Assembly (NCBI GenBank): GCA_021324815.1
Contig: JAJPIJ010000013.1
Coordinates: 62,001-126,000, forward strand
Direction: 5' to 3'
Source of the DNA: Gammaproteobacteria bacterium
Lineage (GTDB): Bacteria; Pseudomonadota; Gammaproteobacteria; JAJPIJ01
DNA: 64,000 nucleotides
Below, one piece after another: positions 25,808 to 48,639 of this stretch. The notes beneath the pieces are model-generated. The model saw nothing but the letters and a program-made list of their open reading frames with translations. It ran no database searches and had not been told where the DNA came from. The position numbers and the translations under genes were made by a program. The stretch's first letter is position 1. Each line of letters opens with the position of its first letter.

Positions 25808-27334
25808 TCACGCCGCAAGCAGGCTGTCGATCAGTTCGAGGAATCTGCGCGAGTTCATCGGCTTGCTCATCACGTGCAACCGTCCGTCGTGCTCCAGGTG
25901 TCTCATCGTCGAGGAGGTGTCGCCGGTCAGCAGGAGGGTCTTGAGGCCGGGGCCGAGGATCGCGCGCAGCGAGGTGATGACCTGCATGCCGTCTTCGCCG
26001 TCCTCGAGATGATAGTCGGTCACCAGCAGACTGATGTCGCCATGCGCCTCCGCGAGCCGCACCGCCTCCTGCAGCGAACCGACGGCGCTGACGCGGTAAC
26101 CCGACACCCTGAGGAGCACCAAGGTCGCCCTGCGCACGGCCTCGTCGTCCTCGACGATCAGGATGTGCGGCTTGGAGGCGTTCCGGCCGACGCCGGTGGC
26201 CGGCATGGACGGCGCGGCGCGCACGTCCGTCATCCCGCCACTCGCCGGCAGCTCGAAGGAAAATTTCGATCCCTTGCCGTACTCCGACTGCACGTCGAGC
26301 CTGAGATCGAGCAGGTTCACTATCCGCTTGACGATGCTCAACCCCAGCCCGTATCCCTCGCGGGCGGCGTTGGCCGCCACGCCGGCCTGGTAAAACTCGT
26401 CGAAGATGTGGGGCAGTTGATCCCCCCGAATGCCGATGCCCGAGTCAAGAACCTCGATGCGCACGCGCGCCTGTTCGTGCAGGCAGCGCAGCGTCACCCC
26501 GCCCCTGGGCGTGTACCTGATGGCGTTGGACACGAGGTTTCTCAGCATCTGGCTCACCAGCGACGGATCGGTGCGCACCTGGTCGCGGCACGGTTCGATG
26601 GTCAGTTGCAGCCCCTTGCTGCGGGCGATGTCGTCGAACTCCCTGCGCATCCCCTCGAACAGTTCGGCCACCGTGACGTCGGAGATCTCCTGGCGTAGGG
26701 CGCCGGATTCGAGCTTGCTGATGTCGAGCAGGGCGTTCAACAACCGTGACATCGCGCCGATGGCGTGTTCCTGCTGGGAGAGGATTTCGCGGGCATGGGC
26801 GTCCTGCGCCATGCGCTGCAGGGCCCCGTTCAGCAGCGAGAGGGTCTGCAGCGGCTGGCGCAGGTCGTGGCTGGCGGTCGCGAGAAACCGGCTTTTGGCC
26901 TGGTTGGCGCGGACGGCGTCCTCGCGTGCCGCAATGATTTCCTTCTCGATGAGTTTGCGATCGGTGATGTCGCGGATCGCGGCGGCCACCAGCGTCCTGC
27001 CGCCGTCCCGGATGGGACTCAGGCTGATCTCAACGGGAATTTCCGCGCCGTCCTTGCGCAAGGCGTGGAGGTCAAGGCCGATGCCCATGGGGCGCACCTG
27101 GCCGTCCTTCATGTAGCGCTGGCGATGCGCGACATGCAGCTCGCGAAAGGATTGCGGCAGCAATGACTCGACGCTGCGCCCCAGGATCTCCTCTCCGCCG
27201 TAGCCGAACAGCTTCGAGGCCTGGCGATTGGCAAACAGGATCGAACCCGAGGCGTCGACGATCAGCATCGCGTCCGGGGCGGATTCAAGCACGCTGCCGA
27301 CCAATTCGGAGGAAAGCAGCGTGGTCTCTTGCAT
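25808..27334 (-). CDS. PAS-containing hybrid histidine kinase with C-terminal receiver
   Basis: A 508-residue protein: PAS (about 10-125, APDAMLIVDASGSILFANRQ), HisKA (phospho-His in LATASHDLRQPLQTL), HATPase (SNAIRYTPRGG, LDSGIGI, GYGLGLSIV) and a receiver (ILIVEDDEAVRRA, LLVTDYHLEDGEDG). The SHDLRQPLQ motif marks the subgroup that often pairs with LuxR-type regulators. The ATG at MQETTLL is chosen because GGAAGGAA precedes it. The track's longer frame extends into the divergent MarC gene. No cognate regulator lies next to it, so it is an orphan here. Confidence 0.9.
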   Translation of the reverse strand: MQETTLLSSELVGSVLESAPDAMLIVDASGSILFANRQASKLFGYGGEEILGRSVESLLPQSFRELHVAHRQRYMKDGQVRPMGIGLDLHALRKDGAEIPVEISLSPIRDGGRTLVAAAIRDITDRKLIEKEIIAAREDAVRANQAKSRFLATASHDLRQPLQTLSLLNGALQRMAQDAHAREILSQQEHAIGAMSRLLNALLDISKLESGALRQEISDVTVAELFEGMRREFDDIARSKGLQLTIEPCRDQVRTDPSLVSQMLRNLVSNAIRYTPRGGVTLRCLHEQARVRIEVLDSGIGIRGDQLPHIFDEFYQAGVAANAAREGYGLGLSIVKRIVNLLDLRLDVQSEYGKGSKFSFELPASGGMTDVRAAPSMPATGVGRNASKPHILIVEDDEAVRRATLVLLRVSGYRVSAVGSLQEAVRLAEAHGDISLLVTDYHLEDGEDGMQVITSLRAILGPGLKTLLLTGDTSSTMRHLEHDGRLHVMSKPMNSRRFLELIDSLLAA

Positions 27335-27467
27335 ATCTGTTCCTTCCGGCGGGGAATCATGCCGCGCCGGTTCATCAATTATCATGGTCCCGCTGTTCAC
27401 GGCCCGGGGCGCCGCGGCCACACTCTTCGCGACGGAGGCCGTGACGGAGTAAAGTATACGCCCTGGA

Positions 27468-28112
27468 ATGTCGATGACCACCCCCATGATTGAAAGCGCG
27501 ATCAACGCCTTCATACTGCTGTTCGTGGTCATCGACCCGGTGGGCGTCGCGCCGACGTACGCGGCGCTGATCCGCAACCAGCCCCCCGCCGCCAGCCGCG
27601 CCACGGCCGTGCGCGGCGTCAGCGTGGCGCTGGCGATCTTTGTTTTTTTCATCTTCGGCGGGCGCGCCCTGCTGCGCTATCTCGGCGTGGGCATGCCGGC
27701 GTTCACCATCGCCGGCGGCATCCTCCTGTTCCTGCTGGCCGTCGACATGGTGCTGGTGCGGCAGAGCGGTCTGCGCACCGTCATCCCCAGCGAACAACTG
27801 GAGGCCGAGCGCCGCGACGACATCAGCGTGTTTCCGCTGGCCATCCCCATGATCGCCGGCCCCGGCTCGCTCACCACCGTCCTGCTGCTCACCGGCGATC
27901 AGGGCTGGCGGTCGGCGCAGACCTGGATGGTGCTGGGCGTGGTGGCCGTCATCCTGCTCATCACCCTGATCATGCTGCTTGCCGCGCAGATCATCAGCAG
28001 GGCGCTGGGGGAGACGGGAGTCAACGTGGTGGCGCGCGTGTTCGGCATCGTGCTGGCGGCGCTGGCGGTGCAATACGTGAGCAACGGCCTGCACGCGATC
28101 ATGCCGTACTGA
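27468..28112 (+). CDS. MarC-family integral membrane protein
   Basis: A 214-residue protein with about six hydrophobic helices. MarC/UPF0056 signatures are readable: NAFILLFVVIDPVGVAPTYAAL near the N-terminus, GVGMPAFTIAGGILLFLLAVDMV, and IPMIAGPGSLTTVLLL. The family was once linked to multiple antibiotic resistance but its transport function is unproven. A TATAC-containing stretch lies just before the start. It precedes, without sharing, the FNR-type promoter of the dodecin-groEL unit. Confidence 0.9.
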   Translation: MSMTTPMIESAINAFILLFVVIDPVGVAPTYAALIRNQPPAASRATAVRGVSVALAIFVFFIFGGRALLRYLGVGMPAFTIAGGILLFLLAVDMVLVRQSGLRTVIPSEQLEAERRDDISVFPLAIPMIAGPGSLTTVLLLTGDQGWRSAQTWMVLGVVAVILLITLIMLLAAQIISRALGETGVNVVARVFGIVLAALAVQYVSNGLHAIMPY

Positions 28113-28155: not shown

Positions 28156-28197
28156 TTGATCCAGGTCAAAAAGCCGCAGCCGCATTTCGACTATCTT
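28156..28197 (+). promoter_or_regulatory. FNR/ANR-type box with -10 element upstream of dodecin-groEL
   Basis: TTGATCCAGGTCAA (28156-28169) differs at one base from the FNR palindrome TTGAT-N4-ATCAA. TATCTT at 28192-28197 begins 29.5 bases after the box centre, which is class II geometry (box at about -41.5). The GCATTTC spacer word recurs at the same position at the hpf promoter near 32693. An AGGAGG ribosome site lies nine bases before the dodecin start. Confidence 0.75.
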
Positions 28198-30105: not shown

Positions 30106-31938
30106 TTACCGAACCATCGCCCTGAGCAGCGGGCGCAGTTCGGCCAATGAGCGGGTGTTGAGCACGTCCTTCTTCTCCAGCCAGCCGCGGCGCGCCTGGC
30201 CGACGCCGAAGCGCAGGTTGGCGAATCCGGGCGTGCTGTGCGCGTCGGAATTGATGCTGATCAAAACGCCGGCCTCCTTTGCCTCGCGGCACCAGACGTC
30301 GTTCAGATCCAGCCGCTCCGGCTGGGCGTTCAATTCCAGGCAGCAGCCGCGTTCTCTGGCCGCCCGGATGATCGCGCCCATGTCCACGTCGATGGCGTTG
30401 CGCTTGTTGATCAGGCGGCAGGTGGGATGCGCCAGGATGTTGAAACAACGGCGCTCCATGGCGCGCAAAATCCGGCGCGTCTGCTGCGCGCGCGGCAGCT
30501 CGAAGTGGCTGTGGATGGCGCCCACCACGACGTCCAGCTTCGACAGCACGCGATCAGGCAGGTCGAGATCGCCCGATTCGAGGATGTCGACCTCGATCCC
30601 CTTCAGCAGCGTGACGCCGCGCAATTTTTCGTTGAGCCTGTCGATGGCCTCGACGTGGCGCAAGAGGCCCTCCTCGTCGAGGCCGCGCGCCACGGTGAGA
30701 TGGCGGGAATGTTCGGTGATGGCGAGATAGCGGAGGCCGGCGTCGCGGGCCGCCGCGGCCATCTCCTCGAGGCTGCCCAGGCCGTCGGTGGCGCGCGTGT
30801 GCGCGTGCAGATCGCCCTTCAAATCACCGAGCTCGACGAGTCGCGGCAGGCGCCGGGTTTGGGCGGCCTCGATCTCGCCGTTGTTCTCGCGCAGCTCGGG
30901 CGGGATGACGGGCAGATCGAGCGCGCCGTAGACGGACGCCTCCGTGTCGCCGGCGACGCGCCGCTCGCCGCGAAACACGCCGTACTCGCTGATCTTGAGC
31001 CCCTTTTTCCGCGCCAGGCGGCGGATGGCGATGTTGTGGGCCTTGGAGCCGGTGAAATACACCAGCGCGGCGCCGCCGGCCTCCCGCGCCACCACGCGCA
31101 GGTCGGCCTGCAGGCCGGAGCGCAGCACCACGCTGGCGCGGGTCGGGCCGCGGGCGATCACGTCGCTGACCTCGTCGTAGCGGAGAAAGTGATCGACGAC
31201 GGGACCGCCGGCGGCGGCAATCGCAAGAATGTCCAGATCGCCGATCGTGTCGCGCATGCGGCGCAGGCTGCCCGCCGCCGCGACCTCATGCACGCCCGGC
31301 GCGCGGCGGAGATAGGGCACGAGCCGCTCCGCCTCGGCGGCGGCGGCGGCGATGGACGCGCGCGGCTTGTCCCGCAGCCGGGATTCCAGCGCGGTGAGCA
31401 GTTTCCGCTCGGTCTTTTCGCCGAAGCCGTGCAGCCGGCGTATCCTGCCCTCGCGCGCGGCCTTCAGCAGTTGCGCGGGGGTTTCGATGCCGAGGTCGTG
31501 GTAGAGCAGCTTCACGCGCCTGGGTCCGAGGCCGCCGATTTGCAGCAGGTTGACGATGCCCGGCGGGACCTCGCGGTGCAGCCGCTCCCGCAGCTTGCAG
31601 GTGCCGGTCTCCACGATCTCGTGGATCTTGCCGAGCAGGTCGTCGCCGATGCCCGGCAGTTTCGGCAGTTCGCCGCCGCCGGTGATGATGCCGGCGATGT
31701 CGCGGCCGAAGGCCTCCACCGTGCGCGCGCCGTTGCGGTAGGCGCGGATGCGGTAGGGATTGGCCCCCTCGATCTCAAGAATGTCCGCGATTTCATTGAA
31801 GACGGCGGCGATGTCGCTGTTTCCCACCCTTGCCGGTTGCTTCAAGGCGGCCCCGGGCGCCGCGGGGCTGGCTTGGCCGGCGGAGGACGGGCGATCCTTC
31901 GCCGGTCGTCTTGCCGCCGCCTCAGGGACGGCGCGCAT
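30106..31938 (-). CDS. polX: Family X DNA polymerase with PHP exonuclease domain (PolX)
   Basis: A 610-residue bacterial PolX. A basic, Pro/Ala-rich extension of about 40 residues is followed by the HhH/8-kDa and polymerase regions (NSDIAAVFNEIADILEIEG, LPGIGDDLLGKI, GDLDILAI with catalytic Asp pair). The PHP phosphoesterase domain lies at about 365-610 (GDLHAHTRATDG, YLAITEHS, NSDAHST). PolX fills gaps and trims 3' ends in base excision repair and end-joining. Its start overlaps the upstream phosphoribosyltransferase gene by 17 bases, so it is co-transcribed from the divergent FNR-type promoter. It converges with groEL. Confidence 0.94.
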   Translation of the reverse strand: MRAVPEAAARRPAKDRPSSAGQASPAAPGAALKQPARVGNSDIAAVFNEIADILEIEGANPYRIRAYRNGARTVEAFGRDIAGIITGGGELPKLPGIGDDLLGKIHEIVETGTCKLRERLHREVPPGIVNLLQIGGLGPRRVKLLYHDLGIETPAQLLKAAREGRIRRLHGFGEKTERKLLTALESRLRDKPRASIAAAAAEAERLVPYLRRAPGVHEVAAAGSLRRMRDTIGDLDILAIAAAGGPVVDHFLRYDEVSDVIARGPTRASVVLRSGLQADLRVVAREAGGAALVYFTGSKAHNIAIRRLARKKGLKISEYGVFRGERRVAGDTEASVYGALDLPVIPPELRENNGEIEAAQTRRLPRLVELGDLKGDLHAHTRATDGLGSLEEMAAAARDAGLRYLAITEHSRHLTVARGLDEEGLLRHVEAIDRLNEKLRGVTLLKGIEVDILESGDLDLPDRVLSKLDVVVGAIHSHFELPRAQQTRRILRAMERRCFNILAHPTCRLINKRNAIDVDMGAIIRAARERGCCLELNAQPERLDLNDVWCREAKEAGVLISINSDAHSTPGFANLRFGVGQARRGWLEKKDVLNTRSLAELRPLLRAMVR

Positions 31939-32620
31939 GACTGGCCTCCGCGCCCGTCGATGATTCCTGGGGCGCCGATTCCGCCTCCCGGCCCCGGCAC
32001 GCGGCCAGCTCGCGCAGCACGTCCTCGTCGGAAAGCTGCCGGAAGTCCAGGTAATACGACCCGACCGAGCCGCTGAAAAATGCGGGCAGATGGGCGGTGA
32101 CGCAATCGTCCGCTTCGCGGGCCAGCAGGGCCACGGCGTCGCGCGGCGCCACCGGAACAGCGACGATCAATTTCGCCGGGCCGTCTGCGCGTACTTCCCT
32201 GATCGCAGCCAGCATGGTGAGGCCGGTGGCCAGGCCGTCATCCACGAGCACGGCGCATTTGCCGGCGGCGGACAGTCGCGGTTGGCCGCCGCAGTAGAGC
32301 TCCCGGCGCCGGCGGGACTCCCGCCGCTGCGCCTCGATCTCCGCCCCGAGCCAGCGCTGATCCAGCGCGCGGCATTCCACTTCATTCAGCACGGCTTCTC
32401 CCGTTTCCGTGACCGCGCCCACCGCGTACTCCGGATGACGGGGATGGCCGATCTTCCGCGGTATCACCAGATCGAGGGGCAGGTCGAAGGCCGCCGCGAT
32501 CCCGGCCGCCACCGGCACGCCGCCGCGCGGCAGCGCATAGACGATGGCCGGCTTGCTGACGCGGCCTGCCAGTGCCCGGGCCAGCTCCCTGCCGGCATGA
32601 CGGCGGTTCGTGAACCCCAT
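31922..32620 (-). CDS. Phosphoribosyltransferase-family protein (copy 1)
   Basis: A 232-residue type I PRTase. It has an N-terminal R-R-AGRELA region, ALPRGGVPVA, PRKIGHPRHPEYAVGAV and the PRPP loop VLVDDGLATGLTM. Its C-terminal tail resembles the PRTases found beside Hsp20, erythromycin-esterase and universal stress genes (COG1926). The substrate base is not known for this group. The start MGFTNRRHAG is chosen because AAGGGG precedes it, and the predicted -10 (TATGCT) lies 20 bases further up. It is about half identical by eye to the protein at 47925-48572. Confidence 0.88.
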   Translation of the reverse strand: MGFTNRRHAGRELARALAGRVSKPAIVYALPRGGVPVAAGIAAAFDLPLDLVIPRKIGHPRHPEYAVGAVTETGEAVLNEVECRALDQRWLGAEIEAQRRESRRRRELYCGGQPRLSAAGKCAVLVDDGLATGLTMLAAIREVRADGPAKLIVAVPVAPRDAVALLAREADDCVTAHLPAFFSGSVGSYYLDFRQLSDEDVLRELAACRGREAESAPQESSTGAEASHARRP

Positions 32621-32639
32621 GGCTTTTCCCCTTTGGATT

Positions 32640-32708
32640 AGCATAGCCCCGGCATGGCGGGTAATATTGATCCAAGTCAACGCGGTCCCTGCGCATTTCA
32701 CCTATTTT
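32640..32708. promoter_or_regulatory. Bidirectional FNR/ANR-type promoter between PRTase-polX and hpf-nrdJ
   Basis: The box TTGATCCAAGTCAA (32667-32680) has one mismatch to the FNR palindrome. Rightward, TATTTT (32703-32708) begins 29.5 bases from the box centre. Leftward on the minus strand, TATGCT (32645-32640) begins 28.5 bases from the centre. Both fit class II activation, so a single dimer site could drive both operons. Confidence 0.75.
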
Positions 32709-32742
32709 AACCGCGGTCATTCACGACAGAATCGAGGGGGCC

Positions 32743-33114
32743 ATGCCCATCCCGCTGGAAATCGATTTTCGCAATGTTGAACGCACGGCGGCCCTGGAAG
32801 GCGTCTTGCGGAAAAAAGTCGGGAAGCTCGAACATTTCTGCGACCGCATCACCAGTTGCCACGTCACCCTGGAGGCGCCGCACCGGCATCATCACAAGGG
32901 CGGGCGGTACCAGGTCCACATCCGCCTGTCGGTGCCGGGCAAGCTGCTGGCGGTGAGCCACAAAACCGGCGGACAGTCGCACGAGGACGCCTATGTCGCC
33001 ATCCGCGACGCCTTCTCGGCGGCGCGCCGCCAGCTCGAGGATCACGTCAGGATCATGCGCGGCGACATCAAGACGCCGCGCCCCCGTCCGCGCCGCCGGA
33101 AAAACGCGGAATGA
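32743..33114 (+). CDS. hpf: Ribosome hibernation promoting factor / RaiA family (short form)
   Basis: A 123-residue protein matching the short HPF/RaiA fold: PLEIDFRNVERTAALEGVLRKKVGKLE, CHVTLEAPHRHHHKGGRYQVHIRLSVPG, EDAYVAIRDAFSAARRQLED, and a basic tail PRPRPRRRKN. These proteins sit in the 30S decoding channel and silence ribosomes in starved or anaerobic cells. GAGGGGG precedes the ATG. It is the first gene of a unit driven by the bidirectional FNR-type site. Members of this low-oxygen variety are often found beside Hsp20 and PRTase genes. Confidence 0.9.
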   Translation: MPIPLEIDFRNVERTAALEGVLRKKVGKLEHFCDRITSCHVTLEAPHRHHHKGGRYQVHIRLSVPGKLLAVSHKTGGQSHEDAYVAIRDAFSAARRQLEDHVRIMRGDIKTPRPRPRRRKNAE

Positions 33115-33132: not shown

Positions 33133-34932
33133 ATGCCCGCGCCGCAAGCACAGGAGATTTGCCGCCAGACCCTGCTTGAAAAATACGCCGCGGCCGGCGA
33201 GCGATCGGTCGCGGAGGTGCAGCGGCGTGTCGCCCGGGCGCTGGCCCTGGTCGAAACCGCGAAAAAGCGCGTCCACTGGGAGAAAAAATTTCTCGCGGCG
33301 ATGACGGCGGGGTTCGTGCCCGCCGGCCGGATCAACTCCGCCGCCGGCACGCGACTGCACGCGACTTTCATCAACTGCTTCGTGCAGCCGGTGGGGGATT
33401 CAATCTCCGGCAAGTGCGACGGCCGGCCGGGCATCTACGTGGCGCTGATGGAATCCGCCGAAACCATGCGGCGCGGCGGCGGCGTCGGCTACGACTTTTC
33501 GGCAATCCGTCCCCGCGGCGCGCTGGTCAGGGGCACGCATACGCGCGCCAGCGGCCCGCTCTCCTACATGCGGGTGTTCGACATCTCCTGCGAAACGGTC
33601 GAGGCGGCGGGCACGCGGCGGGGGGCGCAAATGGGCGTCCTGCGCTGTGATCATCCCGACATCGAGGAATTCATCCACGCCAAGGATGCCGGGGGGCTCG
33701 CCAATTTCAACCTGTCGGTCGGCGTGACCGATGCCTTCATGACAGCGGTGCAAAACGACGACGAGATTGAGCTGGTCCACATGGCGGAACCTCATCCGGC
33801 CCTGTTCACCGCGGGCGTCCACCGGCGCGGCGACGGCCTGTGGGTGTACCGCCGGGTCCGGGCGCGGGCGCTGTGGGATCAGATCATGCGCTCGACCTAC
33901 GATCACGCCGAGCCCGGCGTGCTGTTTCTCGACAGCATCAACCGCGACAACAATCTGTACTATTGCGAGACCATCGCGGCCACCAACCCCTGCGGAGAAC
34001 AACCCCTGCCGTCCTACGGCTCCTGCTGCCTGGGCTCGATCAACCTCACCCGCTTTGTGCGCGCCCCCTTCCGCGCCGGGGCGCGTTTCGACTTCGCCGC
34101 CTTTGCGGACACGGCGGGGATCGCGGTGCGCATGCTGGACAACGTCCTCGATGCGACCCTCTGGCCGCTGCCGGCGCACAGGCGCGAGGCCATGAACAAG
34201 CGCCGCGTGGGTCTGGGCTTTCTCGGGCTGGGCGATGCGCTCATCATGCTGCGACTGCGTTACGATTCCGCGCCGGCGCGCGCCCTGGCGGCGAAGATTG
34301 CCACGTGCATGCGCGACGCCGCCTATCGGGCCTCCGTGGCGCTGGCGCGCGAGCGCGGCCCGTTTCCGCTGTTCGACGCCGGCAAATACCTTGGCGGCGG
34401 GAATTTCGCTTCGCGGCTGCCTGCGCCGATCAAGGCGCTGATCAGAAAACACGGGCTGCGCAACAGTCACCTCCTGTCCATCGCGCCGACCGGCACCATC
34501 AGCCTCGCCTTCGCCGACAACGCCTCGAGCGGCATCGAGCCGCCATTTGCCTGGAGCTACCGGCGGAAAAAACGCATGGCTGACGGTTCGAGAAGGGAAT
34601 TTGAAGTGGAGGATTACGCCCACCGTGAGTATCGTCTCGCGGGCGGTGACGTGAAAAGACTGCCGGGTTACTTCGTCACCGCGCTGGAGCTTTCCGCGTC
34701 CGCGCACCGGGAGATGGTGGCCGCCGTCGCCCCCTGCATCGATTCCAGCATTTCCAAGACCGTCAACGTGCCGGAGAACTACCCCTTCGATGACTTTCAG
34801 GACTTGTATTTCGCCGCCTGGCAATCGGGATTGAAGGGTTTGACCACCTACCGGCCCAATGTGATCACCGGCGCGGTGCTGTCGCCGGGCCGGCCGCTCA
34901 AGGCGGGGAGGTTCTGCCAGGTCAATCTGTAA
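33133..34932 (+). CDS. nrdJ: Adenosylcobalamin-dependent ribonucleotide reductase (class II), short form
   Basis: A 599-residue class II reductase, making deoxynucleotides without oxygen. Active-site motifs are present: ATFINCFV (first redox Cys), [31 protein letters not shown] (radical Cys with Asn and Glu), and [20 protein letters not shown]. The protein stops soon after [12 protein letters not shown] and ends [10 protein letters not shown]. The family's usual C-terminal tail with a Cys-x-x-Cys shuttle and zinc-like cysteines is missing, and there is no N-terminal ATP cone. Either a thiol donor acts directly or the enzyme is impaired. It follows hpf with 18 bases between. Confidence 0.92.
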
Positions 34933-37853: not shown

Positions 37854-37867
37854 TTGATCCATGTCAT
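37854..37867. promoter_or_regulatory. Degenerate FNR/ANR-like box between hsp20 and prs
   Basis: TTGATCCATGTCAT shares the TTGATCCA half seen at 28156 and 32667 but has two mismatches in the right half. Candidate -10 boxes lie 39.5 bases to the right and 48.5 bases to the left of the centre, so the geometry is not class II. It is weaker than the other sites. Confidence 0.45.
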
Positions 37868-47269: not shown

Positions 47270-47928
47270 GGCGGCGTCGCTGCGGCCGCAAGATATTTGC
47301 GGAACCAGTCGCCGGCGAGGGCCGCCACCTGTTCGAGCGCGCCGGGCTCCTCGAAAAGATGGGTGGCATGCGGAACGACTTCGAGCGACTTCGCCGTGTT
47401 GAGGCGGGCGTGCGCCTGGCGGTTCAACGCCAGCACCTCGTCATCGTCGCCGCCGACGATGAGCAGCGTGGGCGCGCGGACCCTTGGCAGATCCGTCATC
47501 GCCAGATCCGGGCGGCCGCCGCGCGACACGACGGCGCGGATGCGATCGGGAAGCGCGGCCGCCGCCTTGAGCGCCGCCGCCGCGCCCGTGCTGGCGCCGA
47601 AATAGCCGACGGCCATTTCGCGCAGCCGCGGCTGGCGCCCAATCCATTCCGTGGCGCTCACCAGCCGGTGTGTCAACAGCCCGATGTCGAAGCGGGTTTC
47701 GTAGTCGCGGTCCTCCTCCTCGGTCAGCAAGTCGAACAGCAGCGTGGCCAGGCCATTTTCGTGCAGCCTGCCCGCGACCATGCGGTTGCGCGGCGAGCGG
47801 CGGCTGCTGCCGCTGCCGTGCGCGAACAGCACGATGCCGCGGGCACCGCCCGCCGGCACGTGCAGATCACCCGCATGTATCGCGCCGTCGAGCGGGATCC
47901 CGATGCTGGTGTCGATCGGCGCCGTCAT
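47266..47928 (-). CDS. Alpha/beta hydrolase (dienelactone hydrolase-like)
   Basis: A 220-residue alpha/beta hydrolase. It has VLFAHGSGSSRRSPRN (oxyanion region), nucleophile Ser in GYFGASTGAAAAL, Asp in VGGDDDEVLAL and His in VPHATHLFEEPG. Proteins of this kind commonly sit beside, or are fused to, COG1926 phosphoribosyltransferases in stress clusters. The natural substrate is not known. It overlaps both neighbours by four bases. Confidence 0.88.
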   Translation of the reverse strand: MTAPIDTSIGIPLDGAIHAGDLHVPAGGARGIVLFAHGSGSSRRSPRNRMVAGRLHENGLATLLFDLLTEEEDRDYETRFDIGLLTHRLVSATEWIGRQPRLREMAVGYFGASTGAAAALKAAAALPDRIRAVVSRGGRPDLAMTDLPRVRAPTLLIVGGDDDEVLALNRQAHARLNTAKSLEVVPHATHLFEEPGALEQVAALAGDWFRKYLAAAATPP

Positions 47929-48572
47929 GTGGCCGGCTCGGTTGCGCGCGCCCCGGCCAGGATCGCGGCCACCTCCTCGTCCGTCACCTGCCCGAAATCG
48001 CTGTAATAAGCGCCCACCGCGCCCATGAAGTATTCCGGAGTTCCGACGGCGATGAAATCATCGACCAGGCGCGAAAGCCTGTTCGCGGTCTCGCGCGGGG
48101 CCACGGGCACCGCCAGCACCAGCCGCGAGGGCTTGCGTCGCCGCACATCCATGAGGGCGGCGGTCACGGTGAGCCCGGTCGCGATGCCGTCGTCCACGAC
48201 GATCGCCACCCGCCCGGCAATCGCGGCCGCCGGCCGGTTGCCGAGATAGCGCGCATGGCGCCGCTGCGCCTCCTGCCGTTCCGCGGCCACCGTCCGCCGG
48301 TACCAGTCCTGGTCCACCCTTTCGACCTCCTCCGGATTGGCGGCCAGTTCGCCGTTTTCGGTGACGGCGGCGATGGCGTACTCGGGATTGTCGGGGTGGC
48401 CAATCTTGCGGGCGATGACGAGATCGAGCGGCATGTCGAGGGCGCGCGCCACCTCCAGGCCGACGGGCACGCCGCCGCGCGGCAGGGCAAGAACCACGCC
48501 CTCCCTGCCGCGATATTCCTGCAACAGGGCGGCGAGACGACGGCCCGCATCGGTTCGATCTTTGAAACGCAT
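47925..48572 (-). CDS. Phosphoribosyltransferase-family protein (copy 2)
   Basis: A 215-residue PRTase. It has RFKDRTDAGRRLA, ALPRGGVPVGLEVA, IARKIGHPDNPEYAIAAV and PRPP loop VAIVVDDGIATGLTV. It is a paralogue of the protein at 31922-32620. It opens an operon with the hydrolase and COG2187 genes, about 50 bases downstream of a perfect FNR-type box. Confidence 0.9.
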   Translation of the reverse strand: MRFKDRTDAGRRLAALLQEYRGREGVVLALPRGGVPVGLEVARALDMPLDLVIARKIGHPDNPEYAIAAVTENGELAANPEEVERVDQDWYRRTVAAERQEAQRRHARYLGNRPAAAIAGRVAIVVDDGIATGLTVTAALMDVRRRKPSRLVLAVPVAPRETANRLSRLVDDFIAVGTPEYFMGAVGAYYSDFGQVTDEEVAAILAGARATEPAT

Positions 48573-48598: not shown

Positions 48599-48639
48599 AG
48601 TATAACGACGCGGCGGGTCCTGATATTGATTCAAATCAA
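48599..48639 (-). promoter_or_regulatory. Perfect FNR/ANR-type box and -10 for the PRTase-hydrolase operon
   Basis: TTGATTCAAATCAA (48626-48639) matches the FNR palindrome exactly. On the minus strand TATACT (48604-48599) begins 28.5 bases from the centre, the same class II spacing as the leftward promoter at 32640. Nothing reads rightward from it, since the capA gene converges. Confidence 0.8.

Follow-up and report, generated by a model that had tools for sequence, protein, structure and literature searches.

A single FNR-type box stands between two divergent gene sets with a -10 element at class II distance on either side, and the view that this one site is placed for both sets, an unusual use of a familiar bacterial switch, is well supported. 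Read from the sequence, the arrangement would comprise two FNR-dependent class II promoters that share one common dimer, probably with one polymerase at a time, and we put this reading at about three chances in four. If confirmed, one oxygen-sensing dimer would control a factor of the ribosome hibernation type, a B12-dependent ribonucleotide reductase, a phosphoribosyltransferase and possibly DNA polymerase X, and the locus would be a natural test case for whether two opposing polymerases can be served by the same activator dimer. The features concerned are given below in the coordinates of the window, that is, the whole 64,000-nt stretch of DNA that was analysed.

30106-31827, minus strand: PolX, DNA polymerase/3'-5' exonuclease (NF006375, 497.4 bits, cut-off 426)
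31922-32620, minus strand: phosphoribosyltransferase-domain protein (PRTase; Pfam PF00156, 1.4e-13)
32633, minus strand: predicted +1 toward PRTase, placed by spacing only; 13-nt leader, AGGGG still within it
32645-32640, minus strand: -10 TATGCT of the predicted PRTase-polX promoter, 21 nt from the box, box centre at -40.5
32667-32680, no strand: FNR-type box TTGATCCAAGTCAA, a palindrome with one mismatch to the FNR consensus TTGATNNNNATCAA
32703-32708, plus strand: -10 TATTTT of the predicted hpf-nrdJ promoter, 22 nt from the box, box centre at -41.5
32715, plus strand: predicted +1 toward hpf, placed by spacing only; 28-nt leader
32743-33114, plus strand: HPF/S30AE-domain protein of the ribosome hibernation factor family (Pfam PF02482, 1.1e-16)
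33133-34932, plus strand: NrdJ, adenosylcobalamin-dependent (class II) ribonucleotide reductase (TIGR02504, 587.5 bits, cut-off 399.95)

The box, its two -10 elements and chance expectation

Between the two start codons (ATG at 32743 for hpf and at 32620 for PRTase) lies a gap of 122 nt. With each -10 set at -12 to -7, we computed the position of the box centre on both sides: toward hpf, a near-consensus box is combined with a -10 that brings the centre to -41.5, and toward PRTase the -10 places it at -40.5, inside the range of -40.5 to -42.5 expected of a class II site. The right half-site of the box reads GTCAA, not ATCAA. The sequence-only reading had proposed exactly this, a palindrome with a class II-distance -10 on each side (TATTTT and TATGCT), and the proposal held. 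Such a combination is rare by chance; among the sites listed, this is the only one flanked left and right by a TATNNT at class II distance. A scan of the 600 nt at 32400-33000 found no ordinary sigma-70 promoter on either side, and a recognisable -35 hexamer is absent from both candidate promoters, which is why both would be expected to depend on FNR. Points against a two-promoter reading are the GTCAA half-site and the leftward leader, which is only 13 nt long, together with the weak right -10 of the congeneric genome and the single close relative described below.

Dinucleotide shuffling of the 122-nt gap produced a box with no more than one mismatch in 0.27% of cases. In the intergenic DNA of the contig, TATNNT occurs in one of three registers at a frequency of 0.0063 (about 0.6% of positions per side), and when the two flanks were shuffled 20,000 times, both -10 elements appeared together in none. 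Over a 124-kb stretch of the contig, divided into intergenic and genic DNA with a simple purpose-made gene caller, boxes with at most one mismatch numbered 13 in 13.0 kb of intergenic sequence against 8 in 110 kb of genic sequence; our genome-wide counts consist of pattern searches and these 124 kb of one contig. The motifs are short, and chance boxes do occur, since a perfect FNR palindrome at 30251-30264 falls within the polX coding sequence; it is absent from the perfect boxes of the congeneric genome G001, has no nearby -10 and is probably fortuitous. Against the shuffles, the conservation and the reversed-pattern controls described below, however, the notion that the gap just happens to contain a palindrome and two TATNNT strings is hardly credible.

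The regulator and the genes on either side

FNR is active at low oxygen as a 4Fe-4S dimer. In this genome, rated 98% complete, we found three HTH_Crp_2 proteins, one of which is FNR-type:

C23:40243-40464: FNR-type regulator, HTH_Crp_2 match

Over residues 17-244 this protein can be aligned with solved FNR; it carries CKKCSLHVMC (CX2CX5C) as well as a cysteine aligned with the fourth ligand of the solved FNR chains, and has VETVSR in its recognition helix, with the E-SR residues in place. Its best NCBIfam match is Fnr NF008365, at 189.7 bits and under the cut-off of 228; judged by its sequence, it is an FNR-type regulator rather than an Fnr member by that model. The two other HTH_Crp_2 proteins have SREMVGR, which we take to be CRP-like in look. 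The same search in G001 gave one match as strong as the FNR-type regulator of this genome. The HTH_Crp_2 match of the regulator on the same contig is at L108:18243-18464 (minus), and the reading frames adjoining it on L114 resemble, by eye, response regulators.

Another Crp/Fnr regulator, e.g., one of the NO-responsive DNR/NnrR type, might use the site instead, as TTGAT-N4-GTCAA fits those proteins too; besides the GTCAA half-site, the frequent TTGAC-type boxes of distant hpf homologues speak in this direction. Yet there are just the three HTH_Crp_2 proteins in the nearly complete genome, and a perfect FNR palindrome occupies the same place in G001, so that we regard a different regulator as quite improbable and retain FNR as the candidate.

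Concerning the genes, the hpf product has the S30AE domain and scores 33.4 bits against the HPF/YfiA equivalog TIGR00741, under the cut-off of 40.9; nrdJ follows after 18 nt. On the opposite side, the PRTase gene is followed by polX after 94 nt, and given this gap and a divergent polX in two members of the family, polX is only possibly part of the leftward PRTase transcript. A coupling, with ribosome hibernation and dNTP synthesis tied to DNA repair and nucleotide salvage, had been suggested for the two sides. NrdJ and PolX are both above their cut-offs, whereas "nucleotide salvage" turned out to be a guess: none of the NCBIfam models reaches its cut-off with PRTase, and all stay far below. 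Further along the window, a hybrid histidine kinase at 25808-27652 has its best NCBIfam matches among the NahK/ErcS type, under cut-off.

The two predicted promoters in related genomes

G001 retains the gene order PolX-PRTase-hpf-nrdJ and is the one close relative in which the whole divergent arrangement was found. In a 348-column BLAST alignment around the box, the two genomes are 79% identical; the G001 box is the perfect TTGATCCAAATCAA, its left -10 is TATTCT (TATGCT here) with the 21-nt spacing retained, and its right element is TAATTT (TATTTT here) with the 22-nt spacing retained. This right element is weaker: it keeps T-12, A-11 and T-7, and three of its six positions match TATAAT. The 21 nt from the left -10 to the box (32646-32666) are identical in the two genomes despite the 79% identity of the region.

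Each of the two sides also has its counterparts elsewhere. The PRTase homologues of G002 and G003 (same family), where polX is divergent from the PRTase gene, carry TTGATGACCATCAA with TAAACT at 21 nt, and that of G085 (another family) carries TTGATCCCCGTCAA with TAATCT at 21 nt. Within the window, a PRTase paralogue (47925-48572, minus strand) has a perfect box at 48626-48639 with TATACT at 21 nt, and both the perfect box and TATACT are retained in G001. At seven of 30 PRTase loci, this locus and G001 included, a box with at most one mismatch lies no more than 200 nt away, and the reversed motif, searched over the same 200 nt, occurs at 0 of 30. Upstream of hpf, 98 homologues with enough upstream DNA were counted, 15 of which carry an FNR box with no more than one mismatch in the 150 nt before the gene, as compared with 0 of 98 for the reversed motif over the same distance. 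Among these homologues, a -10 at 21-22 nt from the box was seen, for instance, as TATGCT (L047/L050), TATTCT (L057) and TATACT (L067), all of these boxes having at least one TTGAC half-site. None of the distant loci fetched shows hpf divergent from PRTase across a short shared gap.

Proposed mechanism, precedents and recurrence of the pattern

Under low oxygen, the FNR of this genome would bind the box at 32667-32680, which would act as a class II activator site for two opposed sigma-70-type promoters, at -41.5 for hpf-nrdJ and at -40.5 for PRTase(-polX), both of them FNR-dependent. In a class II complex, sigma region 4 adjoins the box and the alpha C-terminal domains lie beyond it, and from this geometry we infer that two polymerases would overlap here. 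Because the two polymerase complexes would compete for one dimer and for DNA that overlaps, single molecules would probably use the two promoters alternately, while both operons would be induced across the population. The earlier idea that one site serves two promoters is supported by the spacing kept in G001 and by the homologues on each side, with the qualification that the complexes would overlap on the box. What we observe are the sequence elements with their spacings and conservation and the single FNR-type gene; that FNR binds, where transcription starts, that both directions are activated, that each excludes the other and which genes the leftward transcript contains are what we infer from the DNA.

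Class II FNR sites at -41.5 are familiar from dmsA, narG and nirB of E. coli. For FNR-activated promoters of this species, sites at -40.5 (focA-pflB and yfiD) and at -41.5 have been reported (PMC3688515). Like the class II promoters of FNR, ANR and FnrN, the present candidates combine a consensus box, placement at -40.5/-41.5 and no clear -35; unlike them, one box here appears to serve two opposed promoters. In Sphingopyxis granuli, Fnr boxes are placed at -41.5 (nrdZ, uspA) or at -40.5 (ubiT; PMC7713065), and nrdZ thereby provides a precedent for FNR control of a ribonucleotide reductase. For the class II Fnr site between ccoN and ompW in the same organism, the authors suggest possible service to both divergent genes (PMC7713065); sharing is a suggestion there, whereas here each side has a class II-spaced -10 that the sister species retains.

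In the bidirectional promoters of E. coli, divergent starts share a -10 and are most often 18 bp apart (PMC12825309), whereas 82 bp separate the starts predicted here, which have a -10 element each and a common activator site. A likeness is offered by PacrA/acrR of E. coli, where transcription is divergent and one polymerase excludes the other, and where CRP, placed at -40.5 relative to acrA, activated this gene and blocked acrR (PMC12825309). Seen against this case, FNR might activate one operon only, block the other in doing so and leave the opposite -10 fortuitous or silent, and the weak right -10 of G001 would be in keeping with such an outcome. We nevertheless hold one-way activation to be unlikely, as both -10 elements are rare by chance, both spacings are retained in G001, and FNR-type boxes accompanied by a -10 occur at each gene in relatives that lack the mutual divergence. 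For two promoters on one dimer, the blocking of an opposite E. coli promoter by CRP activation in one direction makes alternate use the likelier mode.

Across 369 genomes of the same class, the two-sided pattern occurs at seven sites, this one included (four with spacings of 21/22 and three with 22/22), and the reversed two-sided pattern at none; G001 falls outside the seven on account of its right element, TAATTT. A scan of viral contigs gave no match to the exact site. Three of the other six sites are clearly between divergent frames, two are of undecided context and one is coding, the gene names around them being our reading of short open-reading-frame translations and not taken from a database. 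The L166 site is flanked by leftward UbiT-like and rightward radical-SAM-like frames, the L170 site by one frame running leftward and an MBL-fold-like one running rightward, and the L172 site by a leftward hemerythrin-like frame and, if it begins at an internal ATG, a rightward glutaredoxin-like frame. The L168 site (1501-1569) overlaps the 5' end of a leftward archease-like frame, with a rightward Hsp20-like frame following, and is intergenic only if archease-like translation begins at a later ATG. For L171, the filtered listing gave leftward frames alone (CydA-like), and the L169 site, inside a long frame, is probably due to chance. The two-sided pattern is rare but missing from the reversed control, and may therefore form a small recurrent class. 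That it represents a recurrent design, in which a symmetric FNR dimer must assign a polymerase to one or the other of two stress operons at a time, with coupled induction and anticorrelated single-cell output, is a tentative and rather doubtful extension.

Two further boxes of the window deserve mention. A weak one, TTGATCCATGTCAT at 37854-37867, lies between the divergent hsp20-lon and prs-osmC; we considered it and set it aside, as it is weakly conserved (TTGATCCACGTCAG in G001) and has, by eye, no leftward -10. The other, TTGATCCAGGTCAA at 28156-28169, faces a dodecin-like gene (28232) and groEL with TATCTT at 22 nt, and is identical in G001, where it is accompanied by TATTTT at 22 nt.
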